DNA from: Pelotomaculum isophthalicicum JI
GTDB taxonomy: Bacteria; Bacillota; Desulfotomaculia; Desulfotomaculales; Pelotomaculaceae
Assembly: GCF_029478095.1 (NCBI RefSeq)
Contig: NZ_JAKOAV010000011.1
Span: 1 to 64,000 of the forward strand
Direction of reading: 5' to 3'
Length of the DNA stretch: 64,000 nt
In this document: positions 30,907 through 51,429 of the stretch, in pieces
How positions within the stretch are numbered: the stretch's first letter is position 1
Layout: every line of letters begins with the position of its first letter
Position numbers and translations under genes: made by a program
The notes under the pieces: generated by a model
Database searches by the model: none
Told to the model about the DNA's origin: nothing
Seen by the model: the letters and a program-made list of their open reading frames with translations, nothing else

Positions 30907-31257
30907 GGGGGCGTAAAGGTTTCGACGGGGGAAGCGGTGGCAGGAGGAGCGAGCCGGGGTTCCATCAGCCCGCAATACGGTGGAAAACTTATAATTGCCA
31001 ACGAAGAATACGCTTTAGCTGCTTAGTTGCAGTTAACCTTCTACCCGCGCTGGGCCCGTGGCCCGGGCTAGGGGGTCATCTAAACGGGCTGGCTTGAGTC
31101 CAATTCTCGGAGGATTCAAGCAAGACTCATCGAGATAGTTCCAACGGAGCTTGGCTGTAAGCGCCCGCGGAGCAAAACCTAAACTACAGCCTGCGCTCGG
31201 AGATACTCCTGTGGTCGGTCTTCCGGACGGTGGGTTCGATTCCCCCCGCCTCCACCA
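30907..31257 (+). ncRNA. ssrA: transfer-messenger RNA (tmRNA)
   Basis: 351 nt. The 5' acceptor strand GGGGGCG pairs with CGCCTCC before ACCA (one G-U pair). The T-arm region GGTGGGTTCGATTCC and the 3' CCA are encoded at the end. The tag reading frame at 30997-31026 gives A-N-E-E-Y-A-L-A-A then TAG, which ends in the usual ALAA degradation signal; with the tRNA-borne alanine the tag is AANEEYALAA. It is intact even though an integrated element begins at its 3' end. Confidence 0.97.
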
Positions 31258-32771
31258 TTCAAATCAACAGTAATTTTGAACACAACTTCAATTTTTTCTT
31301 TCGTGACAATAACCTTTTCTATGAATTCCTGGAGCAACCTTTTGCAGGTATCCAGGTTTTTATTTTGTAGTAAGCGCATGTTTATTTGAAGATATTCTAT
31401 TACAGAATCTATGCTGATAGTGTTGGCTTCAGCTTTAAACTGCCATTCTTGTAACTGGATTTCCAAAGTGGACTTCTTATGTTCCAACCCGTTGAGTTTT
31501 TCAATAATAGAGTGTACAGCATTGCTACCTATAGCTAGGGCGTTGACTAGATTATCAATTTCTTTTTTTGTTCCGGCCAGTTCCTTTTCAATTTGTTGAA
31601 GTTCACCAGCGTAATCAGTCTGTAATCGACGATGATACTCCACAATCTTTTCTGCCAAAGCTGGTAATGTTTCATTGTTAAAAATTTGCTTTTCTAGTTC
31701 AGCAAGAACATATGATTCAACGAGGTTCGTAGCAATTTTCTCATTTGAGCACTGTTTTGTCCGGTTGCCATAGTTGCATGTATAGTAGTGAGTCTTTTTA
31801 TATTCTTTACTTTTTTTTGTTTGATAGCTAGATGAGGCTCCTGTCATCCTGTGGTCGCACTCCCCACACCAAATCAACCCCGAAAGCAGGTAATTGATCT
31901 TTGCTTTGGAGCGGGCTGGCCCTGTGCGGTTTTTGTCCATACGCAGCTTGACCCTATTATACGTTTCCTTATCAATTATGTGTGGCAATATATCAGGAAT
32001 TTCGATAATCTCATCCTGGGGCTTGCTTTTGTGGTTATTCCTGCAGCCGTCATTCTTTGCAGCGCTACGGTTAAATATATATGTGCCGATGTATTTTTTA
32101 TTGCAAAGGATGTCATGCAGGCTATTTTTGCCGAACTCGCGGCCGGCTTTGGTTTTGTAACCATATGAGTTTAACGTATTGATTATATTGCCGTAGCTTT
32201 TACCCTGGCTGTACATTTCAAAAATTATCTTTACCGCCCTGGCTTCTGTTTCATTTATGATATACTTTCCTTCACTGTCAACATCAAAACCTAATGGCGG
32301 CTTTCCCCCGTTATGTTTCCCCTGTAACGCTGTTTCTTTCATCCCTTTCATCCCTTTCATCACCTCGCGTGCAAGGTTGCGTGAATAATACTCAGCCATG
32401 CCTTCGATAACGGATTCCATCAAAATTGATTCCGGGCTGTCGTCAAGGTGTTCAAGCGCCGATTCCACGCGAACACCAGACTGGCGCAGCTCCCGCTTAT
32501 AAAAGGCGCTGTCGTACCGGTTGCGGGCAAAGCGATCCAGCTTGTGGACAAGCAGAAAATCAACTTTCATCCTGCCGCTCTTGATATCCTTAATCATTTT
32601 GAGGAATCCAGGTCTGTCATCAGTTGTAGCGGAGCGGGCCTCATCGGTATAAACCTTTACAACAGAAAAACCCCGCCGCCCGGCGTACTCGTTGCATGCC
32701 CGCACCTGGGCGGTGATGCTTTCCTCCCGCTGGTTGTCGCTGGAGAACCGGGCATATATAACCGCCTTCAC
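31179..32771 (-). CDS. large serine recombinase (integrase)
   Basis: 530 residues. An N-terminal resolvase domain (YARFSSDNQREESI with the catalytic serine; LVHKLDRFARNRYD), the recombinase domain (GKPPLGFDVDSEGKYIINE), a zinc ribbon (WCGECDHRMTG, later YYTCNYGNRTKQC) and a coiled coil near 390-450. It carries out site-specific integration and excision of the element. The last 26 codons lie antisense to the ssrA 3' end, so part of the C-terminus is written by the attachment site. The GTG start at 32771 overlaps the stop of the upstream protease gene. Confidence 0.93.
   Translation of the reverse strand: MKAVIYARFSSDNQREESITAQVRACNEYAGRRGFSVVKVYTDEARSATTDDRPGFLKMIKDIKSGRMKVDFLLVHKLDRFARNRYDSAFYKRELRQSGVRVESALEHLDDSPESILMESVIEGMAEYYSRNLAREVMKGMKGMKETALQGKHNGGKPPLGFDVDSEGKYIINETEARAVKIIFEMYSQGKSYGNIINTLNSYGYKTKAGREFGKNSLHDILCNKKYIGTYIFNRSAAKNDGCRNNHKSKPQDEIIEIPDILPHIIDKETYNRVKLRMDKNRTGPARSKAKINYLLSGLIWCGECDHRMTGASSSYQTKKSKEYKKTHYYTCNYGNRTKQCSNEKIATNLVESYVLAELEKQIFNNETLPALAEKIVEYHRRLQTDYAGELQQIEKELAGTKKEIDNLVNALAIGSNAVHSIIEKLNGLEHKKSTLEIQLQEWQFKAEANTISIDSVIEYLQINMRLLQNKNLDTCKRLLQEFIEKVIVTKEKIEVVFKITVDLNGGGGGNRTHRPEDRPQEYLRAQAVV
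31205..31257. other. probable left attachment site (attL) in the ssrA 3' end
   Basis: The recombinase gene of the element ends inside this stretch on the opposite strand, and chromosomal synteny stops at the CCA. Integration into the 3' end of ssrA that rebuilds the RNA gene is a common strategy of phages and islands. The exact core cannot be set without the right end; no second copy of the sequence is seen in the window. Confidence 0.45.
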
Positions 32772-34779: not shown

Positions 34780-35772
34780 ATGGCTATCCAAGCAAGCGAA
34801 CGAGATTTCATCGGCGCCGCCGGCGACAGGCAGCCAAATGTCCCGCTGCCGGGGGCGCTCACACTATTGGACCTGCCTGCTATCTACAGGGACTTTTGTA
34901 GTGAACTACCTGTCGACGCCATTCAACGCACGAAAGGGCGTGAAACCCGGAAAGGTTATGATACCGACGGGTACGGCTACCAGTATTGCATAGACATGCT
35001 CAACAACGTGGCCGGGCTCGGTCACTGGCGCATCATTTCGGAGGAAGTGTTTTGCGACGAGGGCGAGTATAACAACGGCCGGAAGGCCTACGAGGTAGGT
35101 TATGACGTGGTCGTTCAAATCGGGAACTGGACTCCGGCCGGCTTTGAAGTTCTGGCTGAAACCCCGCGCACACCGGGCGGCCATGTGTCCGCGCTGAAAA
35201 ACGACGCGAGAAAGGGCGCTCTGACCAACGCAATCAAGAAAGCTCTGGCCTTCTTTGGTATCGGCGCGGCGGCATACCGCGGGGAGCTTGACGACGATAA
35301 CCTCCTGCCTGGAGGCCGCGAGGACCTCCAGGAGAAGACAGGCCAGAACCCGCCGCCCAGGCCGCAGAACCAGCCTCAGCAAAACCGGACGCAGAGCCAG
35401 CCGCCGGCGCAGGGCGCCGGTAAGGCCACTGACAGGCAATTAGGCATGGTCAAGGGCACGATTGAGCGTGCCGCCCAGGCCGCCGGCTTCAACATGACCC
35501 TTAAAGATCAGGCGTTTCTCGGCGCTGTCCTGTCCGCCGCTGGCCTGAGCGCGGCAAGTTTGGATGATTTGACCAGGCAGGAGGCCAGTTACCTGATTGA
35601 AAACGCGGCCGGACTGGTGAATCAGGCAATCTTTTTCCTTGAAACAAATCGGTCCGGTACACACCAAACCCCGCCGCCCGGGCAAAAACAGGCCCCACCG
35701 GCCAGCCGGGGTAATGGCCAGGGAAACAGCCCGCGGAACAGTGAGGGGAATGGAAGGAGGCGGCTATTCTGA
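34780..35772 (+). CDS. Rad52/DdrA-like single-strand annealing protein
   Basis: 330 residues. Residues about 40-165 carry the Rad52/22 fold pattern: GYGYQYCIDMLNNVAGLGHW, YEVGYDVVVQIGNW, then the family signature DARKGALTNAIKKALAFFGIG. Such proteins anneal complementary single strands in phage recombination. The C-terminal half (about 180-330) is a Pro/Gln/Gly-rich linker and tail, ending in a short basic GNGRRRLF that could contact an SSB or the partner ATPase. ATG start with AAAGGAGGT upstream. It is followed with a one-base overlap by an SbcC-like ATPase, a common pairing. Confidence 0.82.
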   Translation: MAIQASERDFIGAAGDRQPNVPLPGALTLLDLPAIYRDFCSELPVDAIQRTKGRETRKGYDTDGYGYQYCIDMLNNVAGLGHWRIISEEVFCDEGEYNNGRKAYEVGYDVVVQIGNWTPAGFEVLAETPRTPGGHVSALKNDARKGALTNAIKKALAFFGIGAAAYRGELDDDNLLPGGREDLQEKTGQNPPPRPQNQPQQNRTQSQPPAQGAGKATDRQLGMVKGTIERAAQAAGFNMTLKDQAFLGAVLSAAGLSAASLDDLTRQEASYLIENAAGLVNQAIFFLETNRSGTHQTPPPGQKQAPPASRGNGQGNSPRNSEGNGRRRLF

Positions 35773-37705
35773 TGAAAATCAACCGTCTTTATCTCCAGAA
35801 CTTTCGTAGTCACAGGGAAAGCGACATAAGCCTTGACCGGGTGAATTTTTTCCTCGGCAAAAACAACGCAGGTAAAACCTCCCTGCTGGCCGCTCTGGAA
35901 TGGGGCTTAACCGGGCGCTGCTACTGGACCGACAAGGCTGGCCGGGGAGCAGGCGACCTGATCAAGACAGGCGCAAAAAGCGCCACCGTGCTGGCGGACC
36001 TGGCCGGTGCCGGCCTGGCCGTCCGCACCATGAATCCGAACGGGTTTACTTTTGATGGTGAAACGGCCGCGCAGGCCGCCCAGGCTAAACTATACGCCGC
36101 CCTGCAGACAAACGAGGGCGACCTGCAGGCCGCGCTTAACGTGAGCGCTTTCCTCGCCATGAGCCCGTCCGAACAGAAGACCTACCTTTTCAATGTCCTT
36201 GACCTGCGCTGGGATATCGACATTGTCCTGGCCGCATTACGCGAATGGGCGAATAGGAGCGGGCACGGTGAAAAAATAGAACGGCTGGAACATCTGGTCC
36301 GGCCGCTCTACCCACCGAAGGTTCAGGCCGGGCCGGAAGTGTTGGACGCGATTGAGAAGAAACTGCGCGACCTGCGGCGCGACACCAAGCGTGACCTCCA
36401 GCGAATCCGGGCCGCCCAGGAAGAAAACCCCGTTTCAAACCCTGCTCCGGACGTAACGCTGGAAGAAGTGCTGGCCCAACTTGCGGAATTAAGGGCAGAA
36501 CGCGACAATATCCTGACTATGCTGGCAGACCGCAAGCGGAGCGAGGACCGGCGGAAAACCCTGCAGGCTAATTATGAAGCGGTAAGAGGCAGGTTATCAC
36601 AAATCACGGACGCACTGGCCGGACTTGCCGGGCAAGCCCCAGTAAAACCTTTCGCGGTACCGGACCGGGCAGTACTGGATGGAGCCGCGGCGCTGGTAGC
36701 AAAGCGCCAGGCCGGCGTAGTAAGCCTGGAAGCTGAGTGGCGGACCCTGAAAGCAGCCCTGGATGCGCTTTCAAAAGCGGGCAGCCGCTGTCCGCTGGCG
36801 CCGGACCATATCACCTGCGCCATGACCACGGCTAAAAGGATCAAGCTGCTGGAAGACCTGGCCGCACAGGCAGACGCGAAGGCTGCGGCAGTGGAACAGG
36901 CGCGGTTGGAACTGGACCAGGCCAGGCGTGAAAACGAGCGGCAAAAGACCTTTGCGGAGCAGGCGAGGCAGGCCGAGCGGGCCGCCCAGGAAGCGAACGC
37001 GAAAAAGCCCGGCTGCAGGCCCAGGCTGGCGAACTGTCCAGGCAGGCTGACGACCTGGCCGCGGAGCTGCAAAAATACGAAGCCCTGCAGGCCCCGGATC
37101 TATCACCTTTAAAGGCGCTGGATGAGCGCATAGCTAAAGGGGAAGCCTTTGCCGATAAGATGAAAGCCTACCAGCAGGCCAAAGCCCAGGAGGATACTTT
37201 TGACCGTGATACCGTCGCGCTGACTGAAGATCTGGCCGAATATGAACTGCTTGTAAAAGCGTTCGGCCCGGACGGCATCCGCCGCTGTGTCCTGGCGAAC
37301 AGCCTCGACCCGTTTACCGCGCGCGTGAACGCGAATCTGGCCGGCCTCACGGACGGGGAATACTCCGTCGAATTTGCGCCGGACATGAGCCCCATCGTCA
37401 AGCACGCCAGCGCGGTTGTCCCGGCCCGCCTGCTGTCTACCAGCGAACAGCTGCGGGTAGGGATAGCGGTACAGGAAGCCATAGCCGCATATCTCGGCCT
37501 GCGCATCCTGGCGATTGACGGTGCGGATCTGCTGGATCAGGACAACCGCGACCGGCTGACCGGGTTTGTCCTGGAGCGAGCGGAAGCAGGTGAATTTGAC
37601 CAAGTCCTGGTGTTTTCCACCGTGGGCGATGTGCAGCCCGCGAACCCGGGCCTGCCCCGCTTTAAAATGTTCCGGGTTGAGGCGGGCACGGTGAGGGAAA
37701 TTTAG
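35772..37705 (+). CDS. SbcC/RecF-like ATPase, split by a -1 frameshift
   Basis: Two frames encode one protein of about 644 residues. The first (35772-37112) has the ABC-type N-terminus MKINRLYLQNFRSHRESDI and Walker A GKNNAGKTSLL, followed by coiled coil with a CPLAPDHITC zinc-hook-like pair. The second (open upstream of its ATG 37160, to 37705) continues the coiled coil and holds the C-terminal ATPase half: LSTSEQLRVGIAVQEAI (signature) and ILAIDGADLLDQDNRDRL (Walker B). Reading joins smoothly at GCG-AAA-AAG/GCC-CGG (37000-37009) by a -1 step. It likely processes DNA ends for the annealing protein upstream. Confidence 0.8.
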
Positions 37706-39032: not shown

Positions 39033-39244
39033 AGCAAAAGCCGGTTTTGTGTATTCGTGGCTGTGCCGGGCCTTCCCTGATTAAACAACTTGCCCGCTAC
39101 CTGGACAGGCAGATCACCGCCTGCCAGGAGTGGCTTGAGGGGCCGGACAAACCGTCTGACCAACTGATGACGAAAGCTGTATTGATTACAAGCGCCGTAT
39201 ATATAGCGGCTCATTTGATATTAAGGATATGCCGTGGAGGCTAA
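39029..39244 (+). CDS. small protein with C-terminal hydrophobic helix
   Basis: 71 residues, ATG start overlapping the upstream stop (ATGA), so it is translationally coupled. The N-terminal part is helical (SLIKQLARYLDRQITACQEW). A hydrophobic stretch AVLITSAVYIAAHLILRI near the end could be a membrane or packing helix. No family recognised. It overlaps the start of the DnaD-type gene by 16 bp. Confidence 0.5.
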   Translation: MKQKPVLCIRGCAGPSLIKQLARYLDRQITACQEWLEGPDKPSDQLMTKAVLITSAVYIAAHLILRICRGG

Positions 39245-40161
39245 TAGTGGAGGGCTGGATCAAGCTGTGGCGAAAACTGAAAAACAACGGGCACTTAAAA
39301 ATGCCGGGGACAGCATTCAAGTTATGGATCTACTGCCTCCTGGAAGCTGCCCCCTACCCCGACCGGGCGCGGGCATTGGAGGCCGGGGAACTGTGGCTCA
39401 ATTACGAGCACGTCCGGCAGGTTATCGGCGAGGCCGACCGGCAGATGAGCAAAAGCACCGTTTCAAGCGCCCTGAAATACCTGGCAACGAAAGGCTATGT
39501 AGAGCTTGAGGTAAAGCAGTTTTACGGGGTTAAAGCCCGTGTGATCAACTGGCAGGATTACCAGTCGAGTACAGAAACTGTACCCGTACCTGTACCCGTG
39601 GAAGACATGTCGAGTACAGAAACTGTACCCGGCAAAAACTCAGAAATGACACCGGTTTGCATGCTGCCGGGCACACAAACTGTACCCGTGGATGGTTCAC
39701 CGGGTACAGTAACGAGTACAGTCACGAGTACGGAAACCGTACCCGGTCCTGTACTCGCGAGGGCATCTGAGCCTTACGGCGGCGCGGCCTCCGGAACGCC
39801 TAAGAACAACAAGAATAAAGATCTTAATAATACAGTAGTTGTTGTTAATCTGATTACCAGTTTTGAAAAAGAGTTCGGTAGGCCGCTTTCACCTTTAGAA
39901 GTTGACCAGTTAGCCAAATGGCGCAGTGAGCTTCCGGAAGACTTAATCCTGGAAGCCCTGACCCAGGCTGTCATCCGGAACAAGCGTACCCTGGCCTACA
40001 CCGGCGGCATCCTGCTGAACTGGCAGCGGGCCGGTATTCGTACCGCAGACGAAGCCCGGCAGGATAAACTCAGGCGAAGCCGGCGGACGGGCAGGCAAGC
40101 CGGCAGGCAAGATCCGGCCGGCAGCAAGAAGAAAGAATTTATCAAAACCCTTTATGTATGA
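39229..40161 (+). CDS. DnaD-type phage replication initiator
   Basis: 310 residues. An N-terminal winged-helix region (about 10-110; KLWIYCLLEAAPY, KSTVSSALKYLATKGYVELE), a low-complexity linker (about 112-185) rich in repeated STETVP and TVPV, and a C-terminal DnaD domain (about 210-285; FGRPLSPLEVDQLAKWRSEL, YTGGILLNWQRAGI). DnaD-type phage proteins open the origin and help load the helicase. The linker is short on complexity because its DNA carries iteron-like palindromes (39566-39745). The start may be ATG 39229 or the later GTG 39247 (GTGGAGGGC). Confidence 0.8.
   Translation: MPWRLIVEGWIKLWRKLKNNGHLKMPGTAFKLWIYCLLEAAPYPDRARALEAGELWLNYEHVRQVIGEADRQMSKSTVSSALKYLATKGYVELEVKQFYGVKARVINWQDYQSSTETVPVPVPVEDMSSTETVPGKNSEMTPVCMLPGTQTVPVDGSPGTVTSTVTSTETVPGPVLARASEPYGGAASGTPKNNKNKDLNNTVVVVNLITSFEKEFGRPLSPLEVDQLAKWRSELPEDLILEALTQAVIRNKRTLAYTGGILLNWQRAGIRTADEARQDKLRRSRRTGRQAGRQDPAGSKKKEFIKTLYV
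39566..39745. repeat. four palindromic iterons, candidate replication origin
   Basis: Four 21-bp copies at 39566-39586, 39611-39631, 39668-39688 and 39725-39745. The consensus is arm CGAGTACAG, centre AAA, arm CTGTACCCG; the arms are near reverse complements. The fourth copy has CGAGTACGG and CCGTACCCG, a paired change that keeps the palindrome. Partial copies lie at 39581-39599, 39701-39721 and 39746-39760. Start-to-start spacing is 45, 57 and 57 bp. They lie inside the initiator gene, as in the lambda O gene. Confidence 0.75.
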
Positions 40162-42340: not shown

Positions 42341-42381
42341 AAAAAAGGGGACCTGCCCCTACATATCCAGGAGCAGGCCCC
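42341..42381 (-). terminator. intrinsic terminator of the SWIM gene
   Basis: On the minus strand GGGGCCTGC pairs with GCAGGTCCCC (one bulge), followed by T6 (42346-42341). The SWIM stop codon lies in the loop. Confidence 0.7.
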
Positions 42382-42691
42382 GATGTTGCCGGTGCTCGCT
42401 GCGTGTGTGCGCTGCTTCGCCCAGCTCGTGTAGGGCCAGAGCCGCGATGTGCTTGCAATACACGCCGCGCTTCCTGCGATCGTCACAGCTGCAAAACACC
42501 GCGTGCCCCCTGCCCGCAACATGAAACTCTACACTGTAAACCTTAACCCCGCGTTTCCCAATGCTGCGAACCGCAGCACGAGTCTCACCGCCATCACGCG
42601 CGACATCCTCAACAACCAACTCTCTGCGCACCAGCCCGGCAACCGCCCTGCCCAGCCTGCCATCGTCAACCTTAGCAAGAATCTTTCTCAC
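42359..42691 (-). CDS. small SWIM zinc-finger protein
   Basis: 110 residues. The SWIM motif reads VFCSCDD...GVYCKHIAALALHELGE: C-x-C, then C-x-H, a zinc finger that binds DNA or protein. It is preceded by strand-like KVYSVEFHVAG. GTG start at 42691 with AAAAGGAGG about nine bases upstream, and an intrinsic terminator at its end, so it is a complete single-gene unit inside the GC-rich block. Usually SWIM domains are parts of larger proteins (SWI2/SNF2 helicases, transposases), so this is a stand-alone or trimmed version. Confidence 0.65.
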   Translation of the reverse strand: MRKILAKVDDGRLGRAVAGLVRRELVVEDVARDGGETRAAVRSIGKRGVKVYSVEFHVAGRGHAVFCSCDDRRKRGVYCKHIAALALHELGEAAHTRSEHRQHRGLLLDM

Positions 42692-50832: not shown

Positions 50833-51429
50833 TTGCAACAATATTCGGCTGCTTTTACGTCTGAGTGGTTGCTGCAAAACGAAATGAGAATTTTCCTGAG
50901 GCTCGAACGAGAAGGAAAGAGCCCGGTTGAAATACGAGCACAAGTGATAGAGGAAAACCTTTTTCGGATGAAGCGTCAAAACACTATCATCGCCGCGTTA
51001 AAAGTAATAAACCGCAGGCTGCGTTTCCTGGACCCGGTATTACGTCGGATGTTTTTAGAAAACCAGCGCCATGACCGGTTAGCCGTTTTGCTTTACTCCT
51101 TCCTAAAGAGTTACCGTTTGCCGCGTGAGTTTGTCCTGGAGATATTGCGCCATCACTGGCTGAACCATAAAAATCGTCTGCCCGCGGGCGAAGTAGTCAG
51201 TTTCTTTGAATATAAAGGAGAGCAAAGCCAAATAGTCGCCGACTGGTCGCCAGAAACCAAAAAGAAATTGCGGCAGGTCATGCTGCGTTTCCTGACCGAG
51301 TGCGGCCTGCTGCAGTCGCAAAACGATTACTGGCTTATTACCCCTGTACTGCTTGGCGCTGAATTACGGGCTTTTGTTGATACTGAGCCAAAATACAATG
51401 ATTTTACAGCCCTTATGTTAAATGCTTAG
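50833..51429 (+). CDS. brxA: BREX protein BrxA (DUF1819)
   Basis: 198 residues, the usual BrxA length. DUF1819 pattern: YSAAFTSEWLLQNEMRIFLR at the start, NTIIAALKVINRRLRFLDP, FVLEILRHHWLNH and KLRQVMLRFLTECGLL. BrxA is a small, partly DNA-binding BREX component, structurally related to NusB. TTG start. First gene of a plus-strand island in which all genes follow with short gaps. Confidence 0.9.
   Translation: MQQYSAAFTSEWLLQNEMRIFLRLEREGKSPVEIRAQVIEENLFRMKRQNTIIAALKVINRRLRFLDPVLRRMFLENQRHDRLAVLLYSFLKSYRLPREFVLEILRHHWLNHKNRLPAGEVVSFFEYKGEQSQIVADWSPETKKKLRQVMLRFLTECGLLQSQNDYWLITPVLLGAELRAFVDTEPKYNDFTALMLNA

Follow-up and report, generated by a model that had tools for sequence, protein, structure and literature searches.

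Known origins within initiator genes

Replication origins that lie inside the gene for their own initiator, including DnaD-related initiators, are well known. For example, G38P of phage SPP1 binds oriL, which is embedded in gene 38, and the authors of the same work inferred from failed trans-complementation that phage 80alpha carries an origin within ORF20 (PMC5499656). In plasmid pSK41, the N-terminal domain of the initiator binds four Rep boxes located centrally in rep, the linker is dispensable, and the C-terminal domain is DnaD-like (PMC5703833). The iterons of RepA_N plasmids are inverted repeats that converge on an A tract, and they measure 9 bp in pTZ2162 and 8 bp in pSK41 (PMC7145576). 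Finally, gene 18 of phage L carries six imprecise 11-bp repeats, TGTCCAACGGA, which have been called its likely origin, while the iterons of lambda and P22 are about 20 bp long (PMC8022706).

The array described here, found in a stretch of 64,000 nucleotides from Pelotomaculum isophthalicicum JI (the window), is a palindromic variant of this arrangement. It very probably consists of binding sites for the protein of its own gene and makes up, with the AT-rich tract that follows, the origin from which an integrated element would undergo theta-type replication once excised. Like the window initiator, RepA_N initiators (pSK41, pTZ2162) combine an N-terminal wHTH, an origin-encoded central linker and a DnaD-like C-terminal domain (PMC5703833, PMC7145576), and their 8-9 bp inverted repeats on an A tract closely resemble the window’s CGAGTACAG-AAA-CTGTACCCG (PMC7145576). 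Unlike these plasmids, the host of the window array is an integrated phage-like element; also unlike the window, the RepA_N genes examined have repeats mostly about 23 bp apart, in line with known RepA_N embedded origins. Three such genes from other Bacillota (L152, L158 and L163) show within-gene repeats at a lag of 23 bp, or about two helical turns. Kinship with RepA_N was rejected: PF06970 was matched neither by the window initiator’s N-terminal domain nor anywhere in the genome in a Pfam search, and the hhalign match was either weak (probability of 1% with initiator alignment A4) or confined to the generic wHTH (73.5% over 48 wHTH columns with the broader alignment A5).

The DnaD-like phage initiators (SPP1 G38P, 80alpha ORF20, phrog_186) belong by profile to the same family as the window initiator, and the window array lies inside the initiator gene just as oriL lies inside gene 38 and as has been proposed for 80alpha (PMC5499656). 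The relatives analysed mostly carry direct 11-bp iterons, whereas the window clade carries inverted GTAC half-sites in 21-bp dyads. As in lambda O, P22 gene 18 and phage L gene 18, the iterons sit in the middle of the initiator gene beside an AT-rich tract; unlike in these three, the C-terminal domain of the window initiator is DnaD.

The initiator gene and its element

The gene and its parts are as follows.

39247..40161, + strand: initiator gene, encoding a wHTH, a disordered linker and a DnaD/DnaB_2 domain; GTG start at 39247
39250..39564, + strand: N-terminal wHTH codons, predicted DNA binder (model residues 2-105), conserved in relatives
39856..40062, + strand: DnaD/DnaB_2 domain codons (PF07261; ORF residues 210-278 counted from 39229)

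The GTG at 39247 was chosen as the start from the position of an upstream GGAG and from homologs, the longest ORF beginning at 39229. The protein matches phrog_186 in a PHROG profile search (E=2.8e-31, residues 8-304), and its C-terminal part matches PF07261 above the cut-off in a Pfam search (E=1.4e-20). By these two profiles it fits the DnaD-like phage initiator/helicase loader family, with helicase loading as its predicted activity. O-like PHROG matches were weak (phrog_678, E=6e-4; phrog_391, E=1e-3), and the lambda O family was absent among the initiator’s Pfam matches. An AlphaFold model of modest overall confidence (mean pLDDT 64.5) folds residues 2-105 into a domain, leaves 108-196 as a linker with pLDDT <50, and has helices from residue 191; its best structural matches are to DnaD. 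The array occupies the codons of this predicted-disordered linker, between the wHTH and the DnaD domain. A second genome of the species has an initiator with 100% identity to window 39250-40158, and a genome from a different genus has one with 99% identity (L006 and L008); such near-identity across genera is a sign of recent transfer.

The 3' end of the tmRNA gene (30907-31257) is overlapped, on the opposite strand, by the end of an ORF for a large serine recombinase (31179-32771). Fourteen bp of the tmRNA 3' end recur at contig position 81147, beside a recombinase-like ORF (81308-82105); together, this 14-bp copy and the second recombinase-like ORF suggest an island of about 50 kb. The initiator is flanked by Rad52-like, SbcC-like and RusA genes, with a BrxA gene further on (50833-51429; PF08849, E=1.7e-43) that is followed by large ORFs resembling a BREX defence system, in or beside the element. 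The SbcC-like ATPase (35772-37705) is apparently split into two ORFs in different frames (35772-37112 and 37160-37705), the second with the likely C-terminal ATPase motif, by a frameshift that is either real or a sequencing error. Similar small ORFs were noted at 42359-42691 (minus strand) and at about 74900-75500 of the contig, the first with a SWIM zinc finger-like Cys/His pattern. Unlike in many phage relatives, no recognised helicase or helicase-loader gene adjoins the initiator in the element, a point against the embedded origin. Since head, tail and terminase families were absent among the matches listed around four homologs, these elements may be phage-derived islands or satellites.

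The dyad array

Eleven exact half-sites, CGRGTACRG, fall within 192 bp (39566-39757), with two more outside this segment of the 64 kb. They start at 39566+, 39578-, 39590-, 39611+, 39623-, 39680-, 39701+, 39713+, 39725+, 39737- and 39749-, with a degenerate one at 39668+, and they make up three 21-bp dyads that are good and one that is degenerate, along with half-sites in tandem; all are listed here with the region behind them.

39566..39586, unstranded: dyad 1, CGAGTACAG AAA CTGTACCCG
39590..39598, - strand: half-site CGGGTACAG, in tandem with the right arm of dyad 1
39611..39631, unstranded: dyad 2, CGAGTACAG AAA CTGTACCCG
39668..39688, unstranded: dyad 3, left arm degenerate, CGGGCACAC AAA CTGTACCCG
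39701..39709, + strand: half-site CGGGTACAG, exact match
39713..39721, + strand: half-site CGAGTACAG, exact match
39725..39745, unstranded: dyad 4, CGAGTACGG AAA CCGTACCCG
39749..39757, - strand: half-site CGAGTACAG, in tandem with the right arm of dyad 4
39761..39800, unstranded: G+C-rich spacer (25% AT) from the array to the AT-rich tract, by base composition
39801..39860, unstranded: AT-rich tract (73% AT), candidate unwinding region, by composition and melting

An earlier, sequence-only reading of this DNA had described four 21-bp copies in the linker-coding part of the gene. Three of them are good, starting at 39566, 39611 and 39725, and their arms are complementary at 8/9 positions; the copy at 39668, CGGGCACACaaaCTGTACCCG, is degenerate, with 2/9 positions of its left arm off consensus. 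Likewise, the limits proposed for the array, 39566-39745, hold at the start and fall slightly short at the end, where half-sites reach 39757. The flanking half-sites that had been mentioned were recovered at 39590(-), 39701(+), 39713(+) and 39749(-), along with an overlapping 8/9 match at 39584(-).

The dyads begin about 320 bp downstream of the initiator start codon, and GTAC cores are mostly 11, 12 or 22 bp apart. A search of the 3.6-Mb genome, allowing up to three mismatches, returned the four window dyads and one stray with three mismatches; it found no other array, and no dyad upstream of the initiator gene or elsewhere in the element. DnaA boxes were not enriched, and none lies inside the initiator gene. 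This lack speaks against an origin, although origins embedded in initiator genes require no DnaA boxes.

The dyads at 39566 and 39611 are identical, and that at 39725 bears an ACGG/CCGT pair of changes, which had been read as compensatory and as an argument for selection on the DNA. The pair is indeed present, but the argument was rejected: these positions are simply purine/pyrimidine-degenerate in the window clade, and they are complementary in just 2/18 dyads from four relatives.

Conservation of DNA and protein

The window alone is ambiguous as to DNA-level or protein-level conservation, because all of its half-sites share one codon phase and thus also spell a peptide repeat, STETVP. When codons for the same protein were redrawn from local usage, the linker was expected to hold a mean of 3.1 GTAC and 0.17 GTACn7GTAC, relative to the 12 and 3 observed; when the linker’s own codons were permuted, GTACn7GTAC was mildly surprising (P=0.04).

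Homologs settle the question: GTACn7GTAC dyads are retained at the same place while the protein sequence has diverged. GTAC dyads are kept in L009, L010, L011 and L030 (64-70% identity) and in L064, L065 and L066 (46-56% identity in the wHTH), with spacings of mostly 11, 22 and 12 bp in all seven, and L011 possesses eight consecutive dyads. In one lineage (L065, L066, L070), the same dyad occurs in all three codon phases and encodes different peptides, and in L064 it occurs in two; the phases seen among relatives are (1,0), (0,2) and (2,1). L069 uses other dyad letters, CGACTCCTn5AGGAGTCG, with the same 21-bp geometry and position, and the dyads of L012 are degenerate, with zero GTACn7GTAC. 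A strict palindrome count (arms >=8/9) was significant in L007, L009, L064, L065 and L066 and marginal in L069. It was not significant in L010, L011, L030 and L012, and for this reason the GTAC-pair count was adopted, a measure picked after the window had been seen.

Relatives with the same protein repeats and without dyads had been named as the pattern that would speak against the sequence-only reading; what was found is the opposite, with dyads that persist as the protein changes. Comparison across these homologs shows the array sites to be real and under DNA-level selection, independent of the protein. The recognition helix reads SKSTVSS in most of the window clade, SRSTISR in L064, SKSTIAA in L065/L066 and SNSTVSA in L069, which suggests, from a few clades, that recognition helix and dyad letters co-evolve. 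In L065 (1501-2556) and L066 (778-1806), the GTAC-dyad wHTH module is fused to a clearly diverged C-terminal domain, and wHTH and iterons may therefore travel as one unit.

The AT-rich tract

An adjacent AT-rich unwinding region had been proposed as a check on the embedded origin, and a tract with this predicted property is present at 39801-39860; every homolog checked has one directly after its array. Within the initiator gene, the 50 bp with the weakest melting begin at 39800, 50 bp past the last GTAC, and about 1% of window positions are weaker still. In GTAC-bearing homologs this offset is 47-53 bp (in L064, from the last linker GTAC), although the peptide encoded there is conserved too. 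Among lysine codons, AAG is favoured over AAA in the tract (78:43) relative to the remainder of the same genes (326:559), and 30/36 genes agree in direction (paired Wilcoxon P=1e-4), which hints that the tract, too, is constrained at the DNA level. AAGAAT is repeated directly behind the iterons in many relatives, often in 9-bp steps and with AAG favoured over AAA, and this tract, in the window and in relatives, is possibly a second conserved origin module. The single-stranded DNA motif of DnaD is TnnT (PMC10201434); a link between motif and tract was left as speculation, given that runs of K/N/D/E codons trivially yield TnnT on the opposite strand.

Iterons of 11 bp in wider relatives

A first scan of viral contigs with the single initiator protein gave zero relatives, and a plasmid search with the initiator N-terminal region gave zero matches. 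The wHTH relatives considered here were drawn from viral contigs and annotated phages and comprise 38 genes with distinct linkers. Lambdoid phages are among the sources, as are annotated phages that infect Staphylococcus, Listeria, Lactobacillus, Pseudomonas and Vibrio. Many of the genes carry tandem 11-bp direct repeats directly after the wHTH codons, in the same place as the window array. Staphylococcus phage IME1361_01, for instance, repeats ACAACAAATCA, Listeria phage vB_LmoS_293 repeats GCTAACAAACA and viral contig L106 repeats AACCAGCAGCT, while Salmonella phage ST64T has the very repeat of phage L gene 18, TGTCCAACGGA.

When 8-mer matches, with one mismatch allowed, were compared with synonymous permutation across the 38 genes, lag 11 gave 525 matches vs 139 expected and lag 22 gave 329 vs 87, figures that ignore kinship and so overstate independence. 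Lags 10 and 21 were at or under expectation, smaller excesses at lags 8, 9, 12, 18 and 23 indicate that other spacings occur, and the wHTH codons of these genes gave 0 matches at lag 11. With kinship likewise ignored, the lag-11 excess persisted without the genes that had suggested the pattern (404 vs 117, beyond all 2000 shuffles) and in annotated phages only (277 vs 91). Gene by gene, lags 11 plus 22 reached P <0.05 in 27/38, while 27 chromosomal DnaD genes gave no lag signal (3 vs 1.8). Eleven is not divisible by 3, which puts successive copies in different frames, and no protein repeat can have an 11-bp period.

Proposed origin and alternative explanations

Going by its position, the dyad geometry and precedent, the wHTH would bind the half-sites, with one dimer per dyad. 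A group of bound copies, placed on roughly one helix face by the spacing of the GTAC cores, could then open the AT-rich tract, and the DnaD domain, tethered through the disordered, array-encoded linker, would help load the host replicative helicase; both steps are modelled on pSK41, SPP1 and lambda (PMC5703833, PMC5499656, PMC3349717). The T/V/P-rich linker sequence would be a by-product of the origin; in pSK41, the protein can do without its linker (PMC5703833).

Three other explanations were weighed. The single codon phase in the window, its STETVP repeat and the modest result of codon permutation would all suit a flexible T/V/P-rich linker that grew by duplication over DNA without function; this is refuted by relatives that spell the dyad in other frames with other peptides, disagrees with the codon redraw, and cannot yield the 11-bp period of remote relatives, leaving it very improbable. 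RNA structure fares no better. Inverted repeats could form mRNA hairpins, the fold of the + strand is much stronger than that of shuffled sequences (z=-5.5) and pairing is retained in copy four, but good folding is expected of any set of dyads, the supposedly compensating positions seldom pair in relatives, and the GTAC core is nearly invariant, without covariation. Some half-sites are arranged as direct repeats in tandem, and the direct repeats of remote relatives form no hairpin, so that there is hardly any likelihood left for this explanation.

An operator, at which the initiator or a repressor binds the dyads to control transcription of the gene or operon instead of replication, is also unlikely, although 21-bp dyads do look operator-like and iterons often double in autoregulation. 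The dyads lie far downstream of the start codon, with none upstream of the gene, and five to eight or more phased sites with a conserved AT-rich tract suit an origin better. An autoregulatory role could exist alongside the origin. The embedded origin, the lambda-O arrangement in a DnaD-type system that the sequence-only reading had put forward, is thus the explanation supported by dyads kept in multiple frames, by the AT-rich tract and by published precedents, from which we infer origin activity.

A probable general rule and its significance

It is likely that phage-type wHTH initiators from Firmicutes and Proteobacteria hosts, with varied C-terminal domains, carry their origin as a helix-repeat array (11 bp, all three frames) directly after the wHTH codons. 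Their low-complexity linker, often N/Q/T-rich and here T/V/P-rich, would then be spelled by the origin and not by protein function; iteron letters would turn over while the geometry stays, and the window clade would have made the array palindromic. No paper stating the 11-bp rule across families was found in the open-access literature searched, in which one case, phage L, is published, and from the genes compared here the rule looks general.

For most temperate phages and integrated elements, the origin is still unmapped. If the rule is true, such an origin could be read from the genome through 11-bp-phased repeats directly after the initiator’s wHTH codons, and matching recognition helices to iterons in many genomes would offer a way to study initiator specificity. 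The odd low-complexity linkers of these initiators would be explained, and they would provide a clean natural case in which a function of the DNA prevails over protein sequence in all three frames.
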